Assembly (NCBI GenBank): GCA_016287465.1
Contig: JAEEWP010000006.1
Span: forward strand, 1 to 34,610
DNA from: Caryophanales bacterium
GTDB taxonomy: Bacteria > Bacillota_I > Bacilli_A > RFN20 > CAG-826
Length of the DNA: 34,610 nucleotides
Direction of reading: 5' to 3'
This document shows, one piece after another, positions 2,823 through 12,485 of the stretch. Below the pieces are notes generated by a model. That model had not been told where the DNA came from. It searched no databases and saw nothing but the letters and a program-made list of their open reading frames with translations. Position 1 is the first letter of the stretch; every line of letters begins with the position of its first letter. A program made the translations under genes and the position numbers.

Positions 2823-2845
2823 GACCGGAAATCCCGGTCTTTTTT
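2821..2845. terminator. Bidirectional rho-independent terminator
   Basis: Arms AAGACCGG (2821-2828) and CCGGTCTT (2834-2841) enclose a 5-nt loop, with a T run on the + side and A run on the other. It sits exactly between the convergent acyltransferase and CPBP stops and overlaps the acyltransferase stop codon. Confidence 0.9.
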
Positions 2846-3479
2846 AAACGATGAAGAATCGGACTATGACGTTTAGGAAGTCATAGAGGCCATGGGCGAA
2901 GGCCACACCGACGAACTTGCATTCCTTGATGAAGTATTTCGCAAAGCCGAAGACCGCGCCGATGCCGAAGGTGAAGAGGACTTGGGCGAAGTCGCCGTTA
3001 TTGATGAAGTGCCATAGACCAAATAATGCAGAGGCAATGATGACGCCTATCCACTTATGCTTGATGAAGAAACCGATGAAGGTCTCCTGGACATAGACTC
3101 GGAAGATAAGCTCTTCCACCGGTCCAATGATGATCATAAAGAAGAAGAGGTTGAGGAAGAAATACTCCCATGTGAAATCAACATGACCTCCGACGAGGGA
3201 AAAGCCTAAGAGGGCCGGTAAGAAGGCGATGAAGAAAGATAATACGAGAGCGACGCCTAAACCAATCAAATAGGATTTCCAGTTAGCGAGCTCAATACCA
3301 ATCTTAATGCCTGTGATCTTGATGGCCACCAAAGCGACCGCTCCATTAAGGAGATTGATAAGGACTATAAGGGCGAATCTGAGAACATAAACGATGTCCC
3401 CAGGGATGAGTCGGGCACTGAAAGTGATGAGACAAATGAGTAGAAGGCTCACGATCAAAACGATTATCTTCTTTTTCAT
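2844..3479 (-). CDS. CPBP-family intramembrane metalloprotease (CAAX/Abi type)
   Basis: Integral membrane protein of 211 aa with about six hydrophobic segments. The family signature EExxxR is present as EELIFR (Glu122, Glu123, Arg127), followed by the conserved His157 in GLWHF and His196 in FAHGLYDF. These are the expected glutamyl-protease or metal-site residues of the CPBP/Rce1-like fold, so an active enzyme is likely. Family members process prenylated or small secreted peptides, confer bacteriocin self-immunity, or have no known substrate; nothing nearby decides which. The ATG at 3479 has AAGGGG only one base upstream, an unusually tight SD spacing, so translation initiation is not well explained. 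It appears monocistronic. Confidence 0.85.
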   Translation of the reverse strand: MKKKIIVLIVSLLLICLITFSARLIPGDIVYVLRFALIVLINLLNGAVALVAIKITGIKIGIELANWKSYLIGLGVALVLSFFIAFLPALLGFSLVGGHVDFTWEYFFLNLFFFMIIIGPVEELIFRVYVQETFIGFFIKHKWIGVIIASALFGLWHFINNGDFAQVLFTFGIGAVFGFAKYFIKECKFVGVAFAHGLYDFLNVIVRFFIV

Positions 3480-3527: not shown

Positions 3528-3560
3528 AAAGAAAAGGCCACTTTTCCGTGGCCTCTTTTG
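3528..3560 (-). terminator. Terminator of the sigma/serpin transcript
   Basis: Arms AGGCCAC (3535-3541) and GTGGCCT (3548-3554) with a 6-nt loop lie directly after the stop of the serpin-like gene. On the minus strand the stem is followed by TTTTC and TTTT. Confidence 0.85.
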
Positions 3561-5213
3561 TTAGACGAGGTAATTAGGATCGACGATCTCGCCGATGATG
3601 ATAGGAACATCGAGATAGTCATTGCCAACTTGAAGCATTTTGCTTCTCTCAAACACATATGGGCGATTGAGGACGAAGTCGACTTCAGTTTCATCACCCG
3701 AAGCCATTTCGTCACCGCCCACGATTGTCGCGGAGCAGGAATAGAAACCTTTGTAGTCAAACCTCATGGTTGAGAACTGCGCGATGTATTTAAGACCGAT
3801 AGGGAGTCCCCTGGTGCTTTCGGCAAGACGCGAACCAAATCCTCCGTTCTGGGTAAGGTGTGGGAAGGCCGAGATCAAGTCACCTTCGTGAAGTTGCGAG
3901 GCGTTATTCATGAAGAAGTATGGGGCGCTGATGTTGACTTCATATGTATCAGCGGTCCTCTCTTCTCCGTTCCTTTCGTAAGTGACTGTCTTTGGGGCAT
4001 AATTGTCGTCCAAGACATCCTGAAGGATGCTGCTAGGCATAGCGGTCTCGTTCTTCGGCAAGAAGAATGTCATGTTGCTATGATCAAGAGACATGGTCGC
4101 GCCGGTGAGATTGTCACCTTCATAAAGATAGCTGTGCTGTTCGGATTGTTTGATGTAGTCAACCCTCTTGGTTTGCCCGTTGCAGGTGTAATTCATCAAA
4201 TGGGTGCCGCTCAGGTACTGGCTTTCGTAATAGTCTTGGTTTTCGAAAGAATCGATGTCGTAGAACACGGACATGATGTTTATCGCAGCAGGATCGTCAT
4301 CAGGAAGCTGGATGTTTGGGACAGGTTTGCCTGGGAGGCCATTCTCAGCGATGTACTGCATGGCTTTGTTGCTCGTCAAGGCTTCCATATAGAGTGAGGC
4401 ATCGAAGGCGTTTTGGAGGTCTTTATAAAGCTCATTGTCCGTTTGCTGAAGCAAACGCACCTTGTCTGGATTGAGCCAGATGGAGTTGAGGTTGAGACCA
4501 CCGACATCGTTTCCCTCGCTGTCTTTCGTGATCGTTCCGAAACTGGCGACGATTTGCTTTGTGGCTGTTTTAAGAGCCTCTGCGCTATCAAGCTCAACGT
4601 AGTCGAGAATGTCTTGCAAACCGTTTTGGTCAGAGATGATTCCGGTGATAGCAAGAGCGATATAAGCGTCAGGGATCGAGATGGCAAGGCTCTCTTCAGA
4701 AGAACCAGCAGGATTATTGACGTCCATCATCAAGGTGACGAATTTCTTCGCAAAAGCCTTATAGGAATTGTATGTGGTTAAGGACATGTCGTTGATTCCG
4801 CCCTTCGTCTGCTGATGGGTTGGGGTGATCAAACGGTTGAGGTCCTCATGGACGTAAGAGCCTTCTTGATATTCGTCGTAGTCCTTTGGGCTGCCTTTGG
4901 TAGGAGTTTTGTCCGAGACGGCGGCTGTTGCCGAACCTTGAGGTCTTTCTTTATTGTTGCTGCTGACCGCCTCAGCGACAGCCCCAAGATTTCCTTTACC
5001 CATACCCATCATGGCGGTAGGGATGAGGATTCCTAAAGCCAAAGAGCAGGTCAAGAGAGCGCCCCCAAGAGGGAGGGCCCATCTTGTCCAGGGTGGGAAA
5101 CTTGTAGGTTTCTTTTCGATTATCTCTTTTTTCTCGTAAGGATTCTTAACTATGGCATCCAGGTTCTTGTCGATCTGCTGGATTCTTTTCTTCATTCTTT
5201 TGTCTAAGCCCAT
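3561..5213 (-). CDS. Membrane-anchored divergent serpin-fold protein, partner of ECF sigma
   Basis: 550 aa. A basic cytoplasmic segment (1-44) precedes one membrane helix (about 45-72) and a low-complexity linker to about 140. The outer part reads as a degenerate serpin: helix A-like YKAFAKKFVTLMM (151-163), SIPDAYIALAIT (179-190) matching the family SPLSIYLALA region, LNSIWLNPD (242-250) matching NAIWL, INIMSVFYDI (311-320) matching LVNAIYF, MTFFLPKNE (381-389) matching the LP strand, and a C-terminus with VLNRPYVFE (514-522) and VPIIIGEIVDP (536-546) matching ADRPFLF and LFMGRVVNP. The predicted reactive loop lies between K488-G489 and F513. It overlaps the sigma gene by 10 bases and so is probably translated with it. 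Position suggests an anti-sigma or sensor role. No zinc anti-sigma motif (HxxxCxxC) is present. The serpin call comes from motif order by eye, not a profile search. Confidence 0.7.
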   Translation of the reverse strand: MGLDKRMKKRIQQIDKNLDAIVKNPYEKKEIIEKKPTSFPPWTRWALPLGGALLTCSLALGILIPTAMMGMGKGNLGAVAEAVSSNNKERPQGSATAAVSDKTPTKGSPKDYDEYQEGSYVHEDLNRLITPTHQQTKGGINDMSLTTYNSYKAFAKKFVTLMMDVNNPAGSSEESLAISIPDAYIALAITGIISDQNGLQDILDYVELDSAEALKTATKQIVASFGTITKDSEGNDVGGLNLNSIWLNPDKVRLLQQTDNELYKDLQNAFDASLYMEALTSNKAMQYIAENGLPGKPVPNIQLPDDDPAAINIMSVFYDIDSFENQDYYESQYLSGTHLMNYTCNGQTKRVDYIKQSEQHSYLYEGDNLTGATMSLDHSNMTFFLPKNETAMPSSILQDVLDDNYAPKTVTYERNGEERTADTYEVNISAPYFFMNNASQLHEGDLISAFPHLTQNGGFGSRLAESTRGLPIGLKYIAQFSTMRFDYKGFYSCSATIVGGDEMASGDETEVDFVLNRPYVFERSKMLQVGNDYLDVPIIIGEIVDPNYLV

Positions 5214-5707
5214 AATAGCTCCTTTCTTAGTTTCTCTTTCGCAATGCTGTATATCCTTCTGGCAGAGGATTCGGGGATGCCGGTTTCCTCGACGATCTCC
5301 TCCCAGGAATAGGAATGGATTGCGCGTAGATAAACTATGATCGTTTCCTTATTGGAAAGGAGGGGTTCGATCATGTTGAGGACAGGGTTGCTTCTTTCTT
5401 CTTCGCCGTATATCTCCTCAATGAGATCGGAGGAAGGGAGAGCTCTGTTCTTCTTCATGAAATCGATAGCCTTATTTTTAGCGATCGAACAGAGGAAGGA
5501 TTTGAGTTTGTTAGGATCTTTTAATTGATCCTTATGCTCAACCGCTTTAAGGAACGCCTCACTCAAAACATCGTCACAGTCGTCTTGGTTTTTGACGTAG
5601 GCGGCGATGACGAAATACATGAGATTTTTGTACTCAAGGTATACTTTTTCGATGGCTTCCTGATTGCCGGCAATGAAGCCGATCGCCGTACGTTTTGAGA
5701 TCGACAT
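5204..5707 (-). CDS. ECF-type sigma-70 family RNA polymerase sigma factor
   Basis: 167 aa, usual length for an ECF sigma. Region 2 covers about 10-85: EKVYLEYKNLMYFVIAAYV, then DDCDDVLSEAFLKAVEH (the DDVLSE-type core-binding helix), then AKNKAIDFMKK (promoter -10 recognition end). Region 4 covers about 115-165 and contains the HTH that reads the -35, SYSWEEIVEETGIPESSARRIYSIAKEKLRK. The SD GGTGAGGGGG precedes ATG 5707. The stop overlaps the start region of the membrane-anchored serpin-like gene, the usual arrangement for a sigma factor and its regulator. The upstream element at 5720-5754 is shared with three lipoprotein genes just upstream, which suggests, but does not prove, autoregulation and a local regulon. 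Confidence 0.9.
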   Translation of the reverse strand: MSISKRTAIGFIAGNQEAIEKVYLEYKNLMYFVIAAYVKNQDDCDDVLSEAFLKAVEHKDQLKDPNKLKSFLCSIAKNKAIDFMKKNRALPSSDLIEEIYGEEERSNPVLNMIEPLLSNKETIIVYLRAIHSYSWEEIVEETGIPESSARRIYSIAKEKLRKELLWA

Positions 5708-5719
5708 TTTTCCCCCTCA

Positions 5720-5754
5720 CCTATATGACTTAAAAAGAATGAGAAAACGCTCAA
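5720..5754 (-). promoter_or_regulatory. Promoter-like element of the sigma operon (copy A)
   Basis: On the minus strand: TTGAGC (5749-5754), 19 bases, then GTCATATA (5722-5729) followed by GG. The same two boxes at 18-19 bases recur upstream of all three lipoproteins. An inverted repeat CATATC-AAG-GATATG lies at 5767-5781, just upstream. The spacing fits neither a textbook sigma-A nor the usual ECF promoter, so the recognising sigma is unknown. Confidence 0.5.
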
Positions 5755-5837: not shown

Positions 5838-6773
5838 CTATTCGTAAAGGACTTCGTAATCAGGAAGCGCCTTCCATTCATCGGAGTTTTGAATGGTGTC
5901 CCTGATTTCGAAGACGAGCTCTAAAAATCTCTTTCCGCTCCAGGTTAATCCTTCAGGATAACCTTCGATAATTGGGCAATTCCTCGCTTCAATCGTTTTG
6001 TCATCGATCGTCAGCTTGTAATTTGTCTTTGGGTCGGTTGAGATCATGACGCCTTCATATGGATCATAAGTGCTTGGATATTGATAAAGCGCGAACAATT
6101 TTACTTTTTCGTAGAGGCTCTTGATGTTTGGGTACTCAAAGGTCGTCACGTATTCTTCAGGACTTCTTTCGATCACCTTATTTGTCTTGACGAGAGTACC
6201 ACTATTGCTATCGTATGAGGAATCGAAGCCAGTGCCCCAGGTCAATGAGAAGGTGAATTTCTCAAGAGGGACGGCAAGATGGCCATATTGTCTCAATCCA
6301 AGCCTTTCGGCTTTATCCGCAGCCGACCTAATTTCTTCCTCGGAAATCTTGCCATTTTCGTAAGCTTCCTGGATTCCATATGCCCCTTCGCCTTCAACCC
6401 AAACGGCTAGGCTATAGGAGCCATCCCACCCATCACATACGTAGATGTCCGCAACATAAAAGCTTATAACCGCCTGAGTGAATCCAATACCATCTTTATG
6501 GAACCTTACCAATAAGACGTGCGTTTTTTCACGGAAAAGACCTAAGTAACCCCGAATGTAATAACCATCAGGATCTTTCTTGCTATAGGCCTTGCAGAAA
6601 GCTTCGACCTGATCGGACGTTAGATAATCGCCATAAGCCTCATACTTGCGAGGACCCTGTCTTGATATGGTGTTCTCGGATGAATGAGAAGGACCATAGA
6701 GCACCAAAGGTGTGCAAGAGGAAAGAATCGCACAGGTGAATAAAGCGGCTAATGGATGTTTCTTGTGTTTCAT
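5838..6773 (-). CDS. Lipoprotein paralog 1 of tandem array, unknown function
   Basis: 311 aa from ATG 6773, chosen because GAGGAGG lies 8-9 bases upstream and the protein then opens with a lipoprotein signal ending SSC (Cys20). The frame stays open to 6986, but that extension would run through a terminator and promoter. The body has two recognisable blocks shared with the next two genes: a middle block YSLAVWVEGEG..GIQEAYENGKISEEEI (about 125-155) and a C-terminal block with FTFSLTWGTG, YDSNSG, a run on Tyr/Pro spacing, and the ending LVFEIRDTIQNSDEWKALP. I know of no function for this family. Secretion and lipid anchoring follow from the signal. It has its own promoter-like element and terminator. 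Confidence 0.85.
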   Translation of the reverse strand: MKHKKHPLAALFTCAILSSCTPLVLYGPSHSSENTISRQGPRKYEAYGDYLTSDQVEAFCKAYSKKDPDGYYIRGYLGLFREKTHVLLVRFHKDGIGFTQAVISFYVADIYVCDGWDGSYSLAVWVEGEGAYGIQEAYENGKISEEEIRSAADKAERLGLRQYGHLAVPLEKFTFSLTWGTGFDSSYDSNSGTLVKTNKVIERSPEEYVTTFEYPNIKSLYEKVKLFALYQYPSTYDPYEGVMISTDPKTNYKLTIDDKTIEARNCPIIEGYPEGLTWSGKRFLELVFEIRDTIQNSDEWKALPDYEVLYE

Positions 6774-6789
6774 GGTTTTCGCCTCCTCG

Positions 6790-6824
6790 CCTATAAGACT
6801 TAAAAAGAATGAGAAAACGCTCAA
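6790..6824 (-). promoter_or_regulatory. Promoter-like element of lipoprotein 1 (copy B)
   Basis: Minus strand TTGAGC (6819-6824), 19 bases, GTCTTATA (6792-6799). Nearly identical to copy A, including the inverted repeat CATATC-AAG-GATATG further upstream (6837-6851). Confidence 0.5.
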
Positions 6825-6851
6825 AAAGTTTCTGAGCATATCAAGGATATG

Positions 6852-6882
6852 AAAAAGAGGATTGCAAATGCAACCCCCTCTC
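6852..6882 (-). terminator. Terminator after lipoprotein 2
   Basis: Same hairpin sequence as at 5782-5812 (GAGGGGGTTGC / GCAATCCTC, T5 tail on the minus strand), placed just after the lipoprotein 2 stop. Confidence 0.85.
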
Positions 6883-6906
6883 TCATACAAGCAGCGGACC
6901 ACTACG

Positions 6907-7818
6907 CTACTTGTATCTCGGTGTTTGTTCGGGAAGGGACTTCCATTCATCGGAGTTCTGAATGGTGTCGATGATCTCGAAAACAAGCGTTAGGAAACTT
7001 CTGCCTTTTGGTGTGAGGCCGTCTGGGAGCCTCTCTGTCACAGGGCAATTGGTGGCGTTTATCACCTTATCCCCTATCTCAAGTCTATACGTGTAGGCAG
7101 GAATGGTACGCTCCAATGTCCCCTCATAAGCGTCGTAATCCGTTGGGTATGAATAGAGATCGAGCTGTTTGACTTTCTGATAGAGTTCAGCGATATCCGG
7201 ATAATCATAGGTGGTTGTGTAATCTTCTTTGGTGAGTTCGCTGGAAAGCGGATAAAGGTCTTTCACGAGGACCCCTGTTTTGCTGTCATAGGAATGCTCT
7301 GGGCCACAACCCCATTTCAAGGAGAACGAGAAATTCTCAAGGGTCACATCTTCAGGCGAACCATGTCTTAAGTGGCAACGCTCCGCGCCATAGATGATGG
7401 ACTGGACGTTCTCGTCGTTGATGATGCCTTTCTTGTAAGCGTTATCCAAGGAATAGGAGTCATCTCCGTCGACATAGACGTTGACGCTATATGAAGGATC
7501 TGGGCAATAGCAGATATAGGTGCCATTCAAAACGACGTTGACGCAGACGCAAGGAACGCCCATTCCAAGACTGCCAACGTCAAACTTAAGCATATCGACG
7601 TAGACATTGTCGAAAACGGCTAATTCGTTTACGAGGTAAACATAGCCGGCATCAAGAGGGCGGCCAATCCTATTCGCATAGGTTTTGCAGGCGTTTTCGA
7701 CCTGTGTCGCACTCATGGAACCAAAAGGAACGTATGTGCGAACAGGCCCTGTATCAGAGATCCCACAGGAAGATAAAGCGCAAGTTAGCAGAGTGAGTAA
7801 ACCGATATTCTTTTTCAT
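6907..7818 (-). CDS. Lipoprotein paralog 2 of tandem array, unknown function
   Basis: 303 aa from ATG 7818, with AGGAGGG as SD. The signal MKKNIGLLTLLTCALSSC ends in lipobox LSSC (Cys18). Order of blocks is as in paralog 1: MSATQVENACKTYANRIG near the mature N-terminus, a YSVNVYVDGDDSYSLDNAYKKG block in the middle, then FSFSLKWGCG, YDSKTGVLVKD, and the shared ending LVFEIIDTIQNSDEWKSLP. Paralogs 1 and 2 share more of the C-terminus with each other than with paralog 3. Function is unknown. Likely exported and anchored to the outer face of the membrane. Monocistronic between its own promoter-like element and terminator. Confidence 0.85.
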   Translation of the reverse strand: MKKNIGLLTLLTCALSSCGISDTGPVRTYVPFGSMSATQVENACKTYANRIGRPLDAGYVYLVNELAVFDNVYVDMLKFDVGSLGMGVPCVCVNVVLNGTYICYCPDPSYSVNVYVDGDDSYSLDNAYKKGIINDENVQSIIYGAERCHLRHGSPEDVTLENFSFSLKWGCGPEHSYDSKTGVLVKDLYPLSSELTKEDYTTTYDYPDIAELYQKVKQLDLYSYPTDYDAYEGTLERTIPAYTYRLEIGDKVINATNCPVTERLPDGLTPKGRSFLTLVFEIIDTIQNSDEWKSLPEQTPRYK

Positions 7819-7834
7819 GGTTTTTGCCCTCCTA

Positions 7835-7870
7835 CCATACAAGACGATTGAGATAAGAAAAACCGCTAAG
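7835..7870 (-). promoter_or_regulatory. Promoter-like element of lipoprotein 2 (copy C)
   Basis: Most diverged copy: minus strand CTTAGC (7865-7870), 19 bases, GTCTTGTA (7838-7845). Flanking sequence is unlike copies A and B, so what is conserved here is the two boxes and their spacing. Confidence 0.4.
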
Positions 7871-7880
7871 AGATTTACGA

Positions 7881-7909
7881 AAAAAGAGGATTGCCTAAAC
7901 AACCCTCTT
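7881..7909 (-). terminator. Terminator after lipoprotein 3
   Basis: Minus strand GAGGGTTG and CAATCCTC pair (one G-T wobble) around a 6-nt loop, followed by TTTTTT. It is a shorter relative of the hairpins after lipoproteins 1 and 2. Confidence 0.8.
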
Positions 7910-7932
7910 CCCATTCCTTATAAGATTTCGGA

Positions 7933-8874
7933 TCAAATCAAACGAATCTGATCGTCTTCCGGTATCTCTATGGATTTAAATTCGTCGGAATTCTCGATGG
8001 TGTCCTCGATCTCGAAAACAAGATCCAGGAATTTCTTCCCTTGTGGGATCGTGTTTTCCGGCACCCCGTATCCACGATGAACGCAGTCGTCGCCCGCAAT
8101 CCTCTTGCTGCCGACCTCTAGGCCGATCTCTATCGTGTAGAAGACCGCTGGCGTTTGATATGGCCTTATTCCCCCGTACTGAAGGTAAGGGTAAAACACA
8201 TCAGCGTAAGAATAGATATCCAAGGCTTTGACCTTTTCATAAAGCTCATTGAGGTTAGGATAGGTGAACGAAGCGGTGTACTTGTTGTTCATTCCTCTTA
8301 TAGTTATAAGACCGCTTTCGCTGTTATAGCTCATACTATTTGCGGCTCCCCAAGTAAAAGAGAAACGGAAAGACTCGGCTTTTGTGTCAAAGGTTTTATG
8401 CTCACGGACACGGAGTTCTTCCGCTTTAGCCATGATGGACCTGATATCCTCATCCGTTATTTTTCTTTGAAGATAAAGCGTCTCTAAATCGAAGGATCCC
8501 TCCCCTTCAATCCAGACGTTCATGTCATATGACGGGTATGGGAAATCGCAGATATGGTAACCGGCAACGGAATATGGTTCTATCATACAAAGATCAGCGA
8601 AGCCAGGAGATTCATGTTTTAAGGCATTGACGTGCATGTTTCCATACGTGCCGAAGTCAAATTTCAAATAATATTCATCAGGGACAGAGCTCCCAATCCT
8701 TTCGGCATAGGTCCTACAAATCTCTTCGACTTGCTGAGCCGTATAAGAGCCAAAAGCCTCATAGACGCGGGCTTCGCTGCTGAGCGAGGCTTCTGATGAT
8801 GTTTCCACCACAGGAGCTTGGCATGAGCAAAGAGCGCATGCGAGTATGGCAAAGATAACTTTTTTGTTTCTCAT
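7933..8874 (-). CDS. Lipoprotein paralog 3 of tandem array, unknown function
   Basis: 313 aa from ATG 8874 with a strong SD AAAGGAGG. Signal MRNKKVIFAILACALCSC, lipid-anchor Cys18. Mature part begins with an acidic Ser/Glu-rich stretch, then YTAQQVEEICRTYAERIG, the YDMNVWIEGEGSFDLETLY block, FRFSFTWGAANSMSYNSESG, and the ending LVFEIEDTIENSDEFKSIE. It is the first gene of the array in transcription order and the most divergent. The stop is TGA, read as a true stop; the next in-frame stop is only a few codons later. Function unknown; anchoring outside the membrane is inferred from the lipobox. Confidence 0.85.
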   Translation of the reverse strand: MRNKKVIFAILACALCSCQAPVVETSSEASLSSEARVYEAFGSYTAQQVEEICRTYAERIGSSVPDEYYLKFDFGTYGNMHVNALKHESPGFADLCMIEPYSVAGYHICDFPYPSYDMNVWIEGEGSFDLETLYLQRKITDEDIRSIMAKAEELRVREHKTFDTKAESFRFSFTWGAANSMSYNSESGLITIRGMNNKYTASFTYPNLNELYEKVKALDIYSYADVFYPYLQYGGIRPYQTPAVFYTIEIGLEVGSKRIAGDDCVHRGYGVPENTIPQGKKFLDLVFEIEDTIENSDEFKSIEIPEDDQIRLI

Positions 8875-11100: not shown

Positions 11101-11970
11101 TCATAAGGCCAACATGGATGCTTCCCTGAACTTAGACGGAGGCATCCATTTTGTTTTGCTTTTGATCCGACGGTTGTTGTAATAATCGATATAGTCCGCG
11201 ACCGCTTCCTTGAACTGGCCGAACGTCCTGAATTCCGACTCGTGGCCATAGAACATCTCGTTCTTCATCACCCCGAAGAACGACTCCATTATGCAGTTGT
11301 CGATGCAGTTCCCTTTCCTGGACATCGACTGGACGATGCCTTTCTCCTTGAGCCTCCGCTGGTAATAGCCATGCTGGTATTGCCAGCCCATGTCGCTATG
11401 GAGGATCAGCCCTTCCAGGTCGGGATGCTTCATGAAGGCCTCATCCAGCATCCGCTTGGTCTGCTCCAGGTTCGGGGACAGGGACAGGTCCCACGCCACG
11501 ACGTCGCCCATCCCCATGTCGAGGATCGGGGACAGATACGCTTTGCCGAACGGGCAGTTGAACTGGGAGACGTCCGTCGTCCATTTCTCGTTCGGCCTAT
11601 TCGCCACGAAGTCCCTGTTGATGAGGTTGTCCGCGATACGGCCGACCTCACCGATATAGGAATGGTACTTCTGCTTCTTTTTGACCGCTCGCAAGCCGAG
11701 TTTGCCCATCAATCTAAGCACTTTCTTATGGTTGATCGGGTAACCGCGGTTACGGAGCTCCGCCGTTATCCTTCTGAAGCCGTATCTCCGTTTGTTTTCG
11801 AGGAAAATATCCCGGATCAGATCCATCGTCTCCTTGTTTTTGACGTCTTTGTCGGGCTTATGAAGCTCAAAATAATATGTTGCCCTAGGAAGAGAAGCCA
11901 CTTTAAGCAATTTGGAAAGCTTCCATTCCTTATGAACGGATAATAACTCACCAATTACCTTTGCTTTTTC
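11101..11970 (-). CDS. IS3-family transposase OrfB (DDE integrase part of OrfAB)
   Basis: Catalytic part of the transposase, expected as an OrfAB fusion made by -1 frameshifting. On the minus strand the heptamer G-AAA-AAG (11970-11964), just before the OrfA stop, moves the ribosome into this frame, which continues EKAKVIGELLSVHKEW. An HTH_21-like segment, KETMDLIRDIFLENKRRYGFRR, precedes the integrase core. The triad is visible: Asp in WTTDVSQF, Asp in LHSDMGWQYQ, Glu in CIMESFFGVMKNEM. The C-terminus YIDYYNNRRIKSKTKWMPPSKFR is typical of IS3/IS150. The frame stays open to 12159, but the part above 11970 is the shadow of OrfA. The stop is TGA. Confidence 0.92.
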   Translation of the reverse strand, partial: EKAKVIGELLSVHKEWKLSKLLKVASLPRATYYFELHKPDKDVKNKETMDLIRDIFLENKRRYGFRRITAELRNRGYPINHKKVLRLMGKLGLRAVKKKQKYHSYIGEVGRIADNLINRDFVANRPNEKWTTDVSQFNCPFGKAYLSPILDMGMGDVVAWDLSLSPNLEQTKRMLDEAFMKHPDLEGLILHSDMGWQYQHGYYQRRLKEKGIVQSMSRKGNCIDNCIMESFFGVMKNEMFYGHESEFRTFGQFKEAVADYIDYYNNRRIKSKTKWMPPSKFREASMLAL

Positions 11971-12485
11971 GCCTTGGCTTCCGCGGCTTCCCTCTTTGAG
12001 ACCAAGGCATCGAGTTTTTTTAGGTACTCGTTCTCCATTTCCAGGTATTCGTTCCTTTCCCTGAGGATCCTCAGTTCCTCCTGCTCGGAAACGGATAGCT
12101 TGGTTTTCTTGTTTTTCCTTTTCATGACGAATCGTTTGGCTGGCCTGCCTTTCCTGCATTGTAAACCATCCACGCCTTTCTCGTCATATCTTCTCACCCA
12201 TCGATGGAGCTGGCTTATGCTAATATGCGCGTTTTTGGCTACGGAAGAAATGGAATCGCCCGCAAGGACCTTCGCCACCAGCTCAAGCCTTCCTTCAGGC
12301 GTCCAATCCTTGTTGGCCGGGGAATGCTTCAAGCCGTCGACGCCCAGATCGTCGTACGCCTTCGCCCAATCCCTGACGTGTTTCATGAAGCTGTGATGGA
12401 AGCCGGGAGATCCCGAGATGTCGATATGCTCGCCGTTTTTATACTTGCCGACGCATTCAAGTTTGAATTCCAATGAGTATTTCAT
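11955..12485 (-). CDS. IS3-family transposase OrfA (DNA-binding part)
   Basis: 176 aa. Two helix-turn-helix segments, MKYSLEFKLECVGKYKNG and a second with SISSVAKNAHISISQLHRWVRRY, are followed by a basic stretch and a C-terminal leucine-zipper-like coil, EELRILRERNEYLEMENEYLKK, as in IS150 OrfA. It binds the terminal inverted repeats and supplies the N-terminus of the OrfAB transposase; OrfA alone usually limits transposition. ATG 12485 has AAAGGGG upstream. It overlaps OrfB, and the end of OrfA carries the slippery site. Confidence 0.9.
   Translation of the reverse strand: MKYSLEFKLECVGKYKNGEHIDISGSPGFHHSFMKHVRDWAKAYDDLGVDGLKHSPANKDWTPEGRLELVAKVLAGDSISSVAKNAHISISQLHRWVRRYDEKGVDGLQCRKGRPAKRFVMKRKNKKTKLSVSEQEELRILRERNEYLEMENEYLKKLDALVSKREAAEAKAKKQR

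Follow-up and report, generated by a model that had tools for sequence, protein, structure and literature searches.

What does a membrane protein do when its gene overlaps that of a sigma factor? The question was raised by a stretch of DNA from a Caryophanales bacterium (34,610 nucleotides, hereafter the window), for which a first-pass annotation had described an ECF sigma factor and a transmembrane partner with a serpin-like outer domain. Both genes were located as claimed (Table 1). The sigma factor carries Sigma70 regions 2 and 4 in a short protein; it matched Pfam Sigma70_r2 (E 3e-12) and passed the NCBIfam cut-off for TIGR02937, sigma70-ECF (66.5 vs 42.9 bits). The two genes lie on the same strand and overlap by 10 nt, from which we infer that they are co-transcribed.

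Table 1. Features of the sigma/serpin locus and the adjacent lipoprotein genes (positions refer to the window)
Feature	Position	Strand	Basis or remark
Terminator-like hairpin directly 3' of the serpin gene	3535..3554	.	opposite-strand reading likewise ends T-rich
Membrane anti-sigma candidate with serpin ectodomain, 550 aa	3561..5213	-	profile comparison, AlphaFold2, structure matches
Serpin domain, residues 140-550	3564..4796	-	VIA-align Z 33.6 to 2vdx, model residues 146-547
Hinge and reactive-centre loop, residues 489-518, GFYSCSATIVGGDEMASGDETEVDFVLNRP	3660..3749	-	alignment; low pLDDT 502-514
Membrane helix, residues 42-68	5010..5090	-	hydropathy, AlphaFold2 helix
Cytoplasmic tail, residues 1-41, predicted sigma-binding part	5091..5213	-	same tail on unrelated ectodomains, sigma upstream
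ECF sigma factor, 167 aa	5204..5707	-	Sigma70_r2, TIGR02937
Predicted autoregulatory ECF promoter, TTGAGCGTTTTCTCATTCTTTTTAAGTCATA	5724..5754	-	conserved upstream of sigma genes, fixed N18 geometry
Lipoprotein 1, 311 aa, predicted target	5838..6773	-	lipobox LSSC, start 20 nt past promoter
Matching promoter before the adjacent lipoprotein gene	6794..6824	-	exact match
Lipoprotein 2, 303 aa, paralogue of lipoprotein 1	6907..7818	-	alignment A8, 43% identity
Lipoprotein 3, 313 aa, paralogue of lipoprotein 1	7933..8874	-	alignment A8, 37% identity

In the AlphaFold2 model of the 550-aa protein (pLDDT 79.7) a tail helix (residues 2-21) is followed by the membrane helix, a linker predicted to be disordered and an outer domain modelled with confidence. 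The protein thus has the layout of an anti-sigma factor, a cytoplasmic part and one membrane helix, and its relatives are arranged alike. A VKNPYEK motif is conserved in the cytoplasmic tail. The tail matched no known anti-sigma domain in Pfam or PDB, although tails this short could escape such models, and neither RsgI_N, RsgI_M nor RsiV-type domains were detected in the whole protein by Pfam at E 10.

A gene for a CAAX-type (Rce1-like) membrane protease lies downstream of the serpin gene at 2844-3479(-). Its product was considered as a site-1 protease; the terminator-like hairpin stands between the two genes. Farther away in the window, at 11101-12159(-), there is a transposase-like gene (HTH_21, rve).

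The serpin fold of the outer domain

The 550-aa protein (P0001) had zero Pfam matches even at E 10 and its NCBIfam scan was also empty; the serpin claim therefore required other evidence, and relatives were used for the identification. One of these, L039 (the L numbers denote loci of our collection), 24-27% identical to the window protein (E 3e-28), was recognized as Pfam Serpin (E 9.5e-13) across almost the entire model. The profile of the window family aligned to a profile of Pfam-recognized membrane serpins with a probability of 99.5 (E 1.1e-22, hhalign), and it retrieved Serpin-ZX from the PDB (E 3.4e-4). For the AlphaFold2 model, Foldseek and VIA-align listed serpins (best Z 33.6, rmsd 2.9, 342 residues). 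Structure prediction, which the first-pass annotation had named as a check, thus gave a serpin fold. Taken together, the profiles, the recognized relative and the model settle the fold: the outer domain is a serpin.

The top structural match was cleaved CBG (2vdx), a ligand-binding serpin. Latent tengpin (Z 33.4) fitted the model better than native tengpin (Z 30.3); for native miropin Z was 29.6. Since, in addition, the hinge (residues 489-500) was modelled as a strand, the model shows the loop-inserted state. This is compatible with insertion, but the model predicts one state and proves no transition. The better fit to latent than to native tengpin could mean that loop insertion proceeds without cleavage.

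Recurrence of the pair and exchange of ectodomains

The same genome contains three further sigma/membrane-serpin pairs (L001, L047 and L050), of which the L001 serpin was recognized by Pfam unaided, and the other two carry the window's tail type. The serpins of 50 loci of the same family split into two groups. Lipoprotein or secreted serpins of ~400-470 aa have no neighbouring sigma gene, whereas serpins with a cytoplasmic tail and a membrane helix have a sigma gene immediately upstream, mostly overlapping; a sigma gene counted as absent if neither flank contained one within ~1.5 kb, some loci being close to contig ends. In the paired loci the genes are co-directional and overlap or abut. At least four families of the order contain the pair, and a class-wide search detected it in family f27 of another order (L137-L139, L170; Pfam Serpin E 4e-44). 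The arrangement that the first-pass annotation had reported from one locus is thus kept in relatives. The genomes compared are for the most part metagenome-assembled; relatives with a name are metagenome genomes that bear the label Bacilli, Bacillales or Erysipelotrichaceae, and most come from the rumen or another ruminant stomach. Serpin or tail queries were used to collect the loci, and sigma factors were detected with a profile built from these same sigma factors.

Serpins with the window-type tail nearly always have a sigma gene upstream. In two relatives of the L001 type, L067 (with a lipoprotein signal) and L071 (with a short tail), the usual tail is missing and so is the sigma gene. A profile restricted to the tail plus the membrane helix (A7) identified the same module, with an adjoining sigma gene, on ectodomains unrelated to serpins (L049, L189, L191-L200, L202); their number is a lower bound, since the loci came from serpin or tail queries. 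The sigma tree requires at least seven switches between serpin and non-serpin ectodomains, three of them forced by well-supported branches. A fifth ECF sigma factor of the genome (L120) has as its partner a membrane protein with a long N-terminal part and RsgI_M, a known anti-sigma domain. Because the sigma gene tracks the tail across ectodomains, the tree shows switches and a sister sigma factor is paired with RsgI_M, the module is read as an anti-sigma factor whose sensor can be exchanged, the serpin being one of its ectodomains. That the two window proteins are a sigma factor and its anti-sigma factor is in our judgement very probable.

The eight loci of family f17 (L157-L164) encode membrane-anchored serpins with unrelated tails and have no sigma gene nearby. 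Such sigma-less proteins would fit an explanation in which the membrane serpin of the window is a mere surface inhibitor co-regulated by the sigma factor, its tail being no anti-sigma domain. We regard this as very improbable, as the sigma gene is tied to the type of tail rather than to the serpin, is found upstream of the same tail even when the ectodomain is no serpin, and disappears jointly with the tail in L067 and L071.

A conserved promoter and the predicted regulon

In both large sub-families the sigma genes are preceded by a two-block promoter with a fixed gap of 18 nt, which reads GAGCG-N18-GTC in window-type loci and CGACA-N18-GT[CT] in those of the L001 type. The window-type motif occurs five times with zero mismatches in the genome, before the sigma gene, the neighbouring lipoprotein gene and three other lipoprotein genes, vs an estimated ~0.002 exact matches expected from base composition. 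Allowing at most one mismatch, nine further genomes gave 29 matches vs 2 for a reversed-pattern control. These precede sigma genes or genes of lipoproteins or secreted proteins, mostly 15-32 nt from the start codon, the exceptions being one match at a contig end, one before a broken lipoprotein gene and one before another open frame. Judged by sequence, the genes sharing this conserved promoter, the sigma pair and the lipoprotein genes, are predicted to form a regulon.

The three lipoprotein paralogues of the window had no Pfam match, and neither a recognizable function nor a link to proteases was found for the target lipoproteins; the predicted fold of lipoprotein 1 gave no PDB match at E 0.001 or better (Foldseek). 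The three stand in tandem at 5838-8874, and copies also lie upstream of the sigma gene in L081, L084, L085 and L090. In L226 a target lipoprotein gene (from 1501(+)) has an intact promoter, but its reading frame is broken early in comparison with its relative L211. The same genome as the window also encodes a lipoprotein-type serpin with an inhibitory-looking hinge, IEGAAVT (L002:1171-2586(+)); no window-type promoter was found before it.

For the L001 sigma factor no regulon could be proposed, its promoter type being found only before its own operon (at most two mismatches). In L001, L018, L020, L023 and their relatives the -10 block is just a few bases ahead of the likely ATG; a leaderless transcript is therefore possible.

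The non-serpin ectodomain of the L049 anti-sigma factor (L049:250-1692(-)) shares 32% identity (E 7e-26) with a lipoprotein from another genome (L211:1550-2392(+)), whose gene is preceded by the sigma-type promoter. At least one ectodomain therefore shares its stock with the regulon lipoproteins. We would guess that the serpin ectodomains are related in the same way to the free lipoprotein serpins.

The reactive loop, the possible trigger and related systems

The reactive loop predicted by the first-pass annotation is present: residues 502-514 have low pLDDT, as expected of a mobile loop, and the loop has the same length as in the relatives. The phenylalanine at P14, which had been called unusual, turned out to be ordinary for this lineage, where Val, Ile, Phe or Leu often occupies P14, also in lipoprotein serpins. 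In window-family serpins P12-P9 are small residues; the hinge is conserved, whereas the loop varies. The consensus of inhibitory hinges (P17-P9) is ExGTEAAAA (PMC8233489); the window hinge, GFYSCSATI, departs from it although P12-P9 are small, and the L001-type hinge, SIVKSVSM, is farther away. Near-inhibitory hinges occur in two sigma-paired lineages, EAAAVT in the L009 type and EGGAVT in f27. The shutter His is replaced by Gln in 53 of 55 sigma-paired serpins vs 20 of 55 others, a count confounded by ancestry. For this reason, and because some unpaired lipoprotein serpins share the Gln, the replacement was rejected as a signature of pairing. With hinge and shutter departing from those of inhibitory serpins, the ectodomain may be non-inhibitory.

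Hormone-carrying serpins bind hormones, and by analogy the ectodomain could be a non-inhibitory scaffold for a ligand or surface molecule, in which binding and not loop cleavage exposes the site-1 site. The non-consensus hinges and the Gln at the shutter in most paired serpins agree with this, as does the match to CBG, although a fold by itself reveals no function; an anti-sigma ectodomain that senses a ligand is already known from RsiV (PMC5014341, PMC6066255). The near-inhibitory hinges of the L009 type and f27 argue against it, as do the small P12-P9 residues, conserved hinge and variable loop of the window family. We consider this explanation rather unlikely.

We favour, on balance, the joint reading of an ECF sigma factor and a membrane anti-sigma factor whose serpin senses an extracellular cue, likeliest a protease that cuts the loop. 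As to its parts, a sensing role of the serpin is probable, whereas cleavage of the loop as the trigger is put forward tentatively, somewhat short of even odds. The short cytoplasmic tail would hold the sigma factor at the membrane protein. An environmental protease would cut or engage the reactive loop, and the ensuing rearrangement of the serpin would lay the anti-sigma factor open to cleavage at site 1 and, after that, at site 2 (M50). Once released, the sigma factor would transcribe the operon that encodes it, together with a number of surface lipoprotein genes. The genome encodes an M50 site-2 protease, thus ordinary intramembrane proteolysis probably still follows. The proposal of the first-pass annotation that a protease-driven change of shape replaces site-1 proteolysis suits the anatomy and can be kept as a hypothesis, but the hinge is non-consensus and the best-matching structures are loop-inserted.

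Serpins are suicide inhibitors. This property and the presence of the M50 protease would also suit a protector, a serpin that traps nearby proteases and blocks site-1 cleavage for as long as it lasts, the system thereby measuring protease load. Such a role appears improbable to us, considering that the hinge is off the inhibitory consensus and that related systems swap the ectodomain for domains that are no inhibitors.

Loop cleavage and insertion, to return to the favoured reading, could serve as the switch. Three features favour such a switch: the loop is retained, P12-P9 are small in the window family, and two paired lineages have near-inhibitory hinges. It is opposed by the departure of the hinge from consensus, largest in the L001 type, and by the Gln at the shutter His. 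Also counting against the favoured reading are the failure of the tail to match a known anti-sigma domain, the missing link of the target lipoproteins to proteases, and the absence of the promoter before the lipoprotein serpin L002. In its full form, the serpin would be a bacterial receptor for one-shot protease sensing: a protease cuts the loop, the loop inserts, the change is transmitted across the membrane and the sigma factor is released. This we regard as possible but doubtful.

Here serpins are found repeatedly as the outer half of sigma/anti-sigma systems, where they probably act as sensors and for which targets are predicted. This gives these proteins a testable role and would widen the range of anti-sigma sensor domains. 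Rumen Bacilli may use a serpin to sense proteases, the pair being present in dozens of genomes and seemingly controlling surface lipoproteins. Such a system would offer a sigma-factor reporter for protease activity at the bacterial surface, in rumen and gut. The signalling layout is known, but no description of a serpin as an anti-sigma sensor was found in the open-access literature; where papers mention both a serpin and an anti-sigma factor, their titles and abstracts indicate that the joint mention is incidental.

The closest layout is that of SigV/RsiV of Bacillus subtilis, in which the RsiV ectodomain binds lysozyme, a signal-peptidase site is exposed and site-2 cleavage follows (PMC5014341, PMC6066255). 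Common to both would be an ECF sigma factor, a membrane anti-sigma factor, an ectodomain recognizing an extracellular protein, and site-1 followed by site-2 proteolysis, the last by inference in our case; in contrast to RsiV, the ectodomain here is a serpin without any RsiV-type Pfam domain. Exchangeable sensing ectodomains are shared with the modular RsgI anti-sigma factors (PMC12203970, PMC4711584), as in SigI/RsgI of Clostridium thermocellum, and the sister protein L120 contains RsgI_M; the ectodomains there are carbohydrate-binding modules, whereas the window protein has a serpin and no RsgI domain, and its sigma factor is of the ECF type. With tengpin, miropin, siropins and the Bifidobacterium serpin, which have been described as protease inhibitors (PMC8233489), the window serpin shares the fold. 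A 2021 survey noted membrane-anchored serpins in prokaryotes and called the role of prokaryotic serpins "enigmatic", sigma factors never being mentioned (PMC8233489). The window serpin differs from those bacterial inhibitors in being membrane-anchored, in its cytoplasmic tail and sigma neighbour, and in its divergent hinge and shutter.
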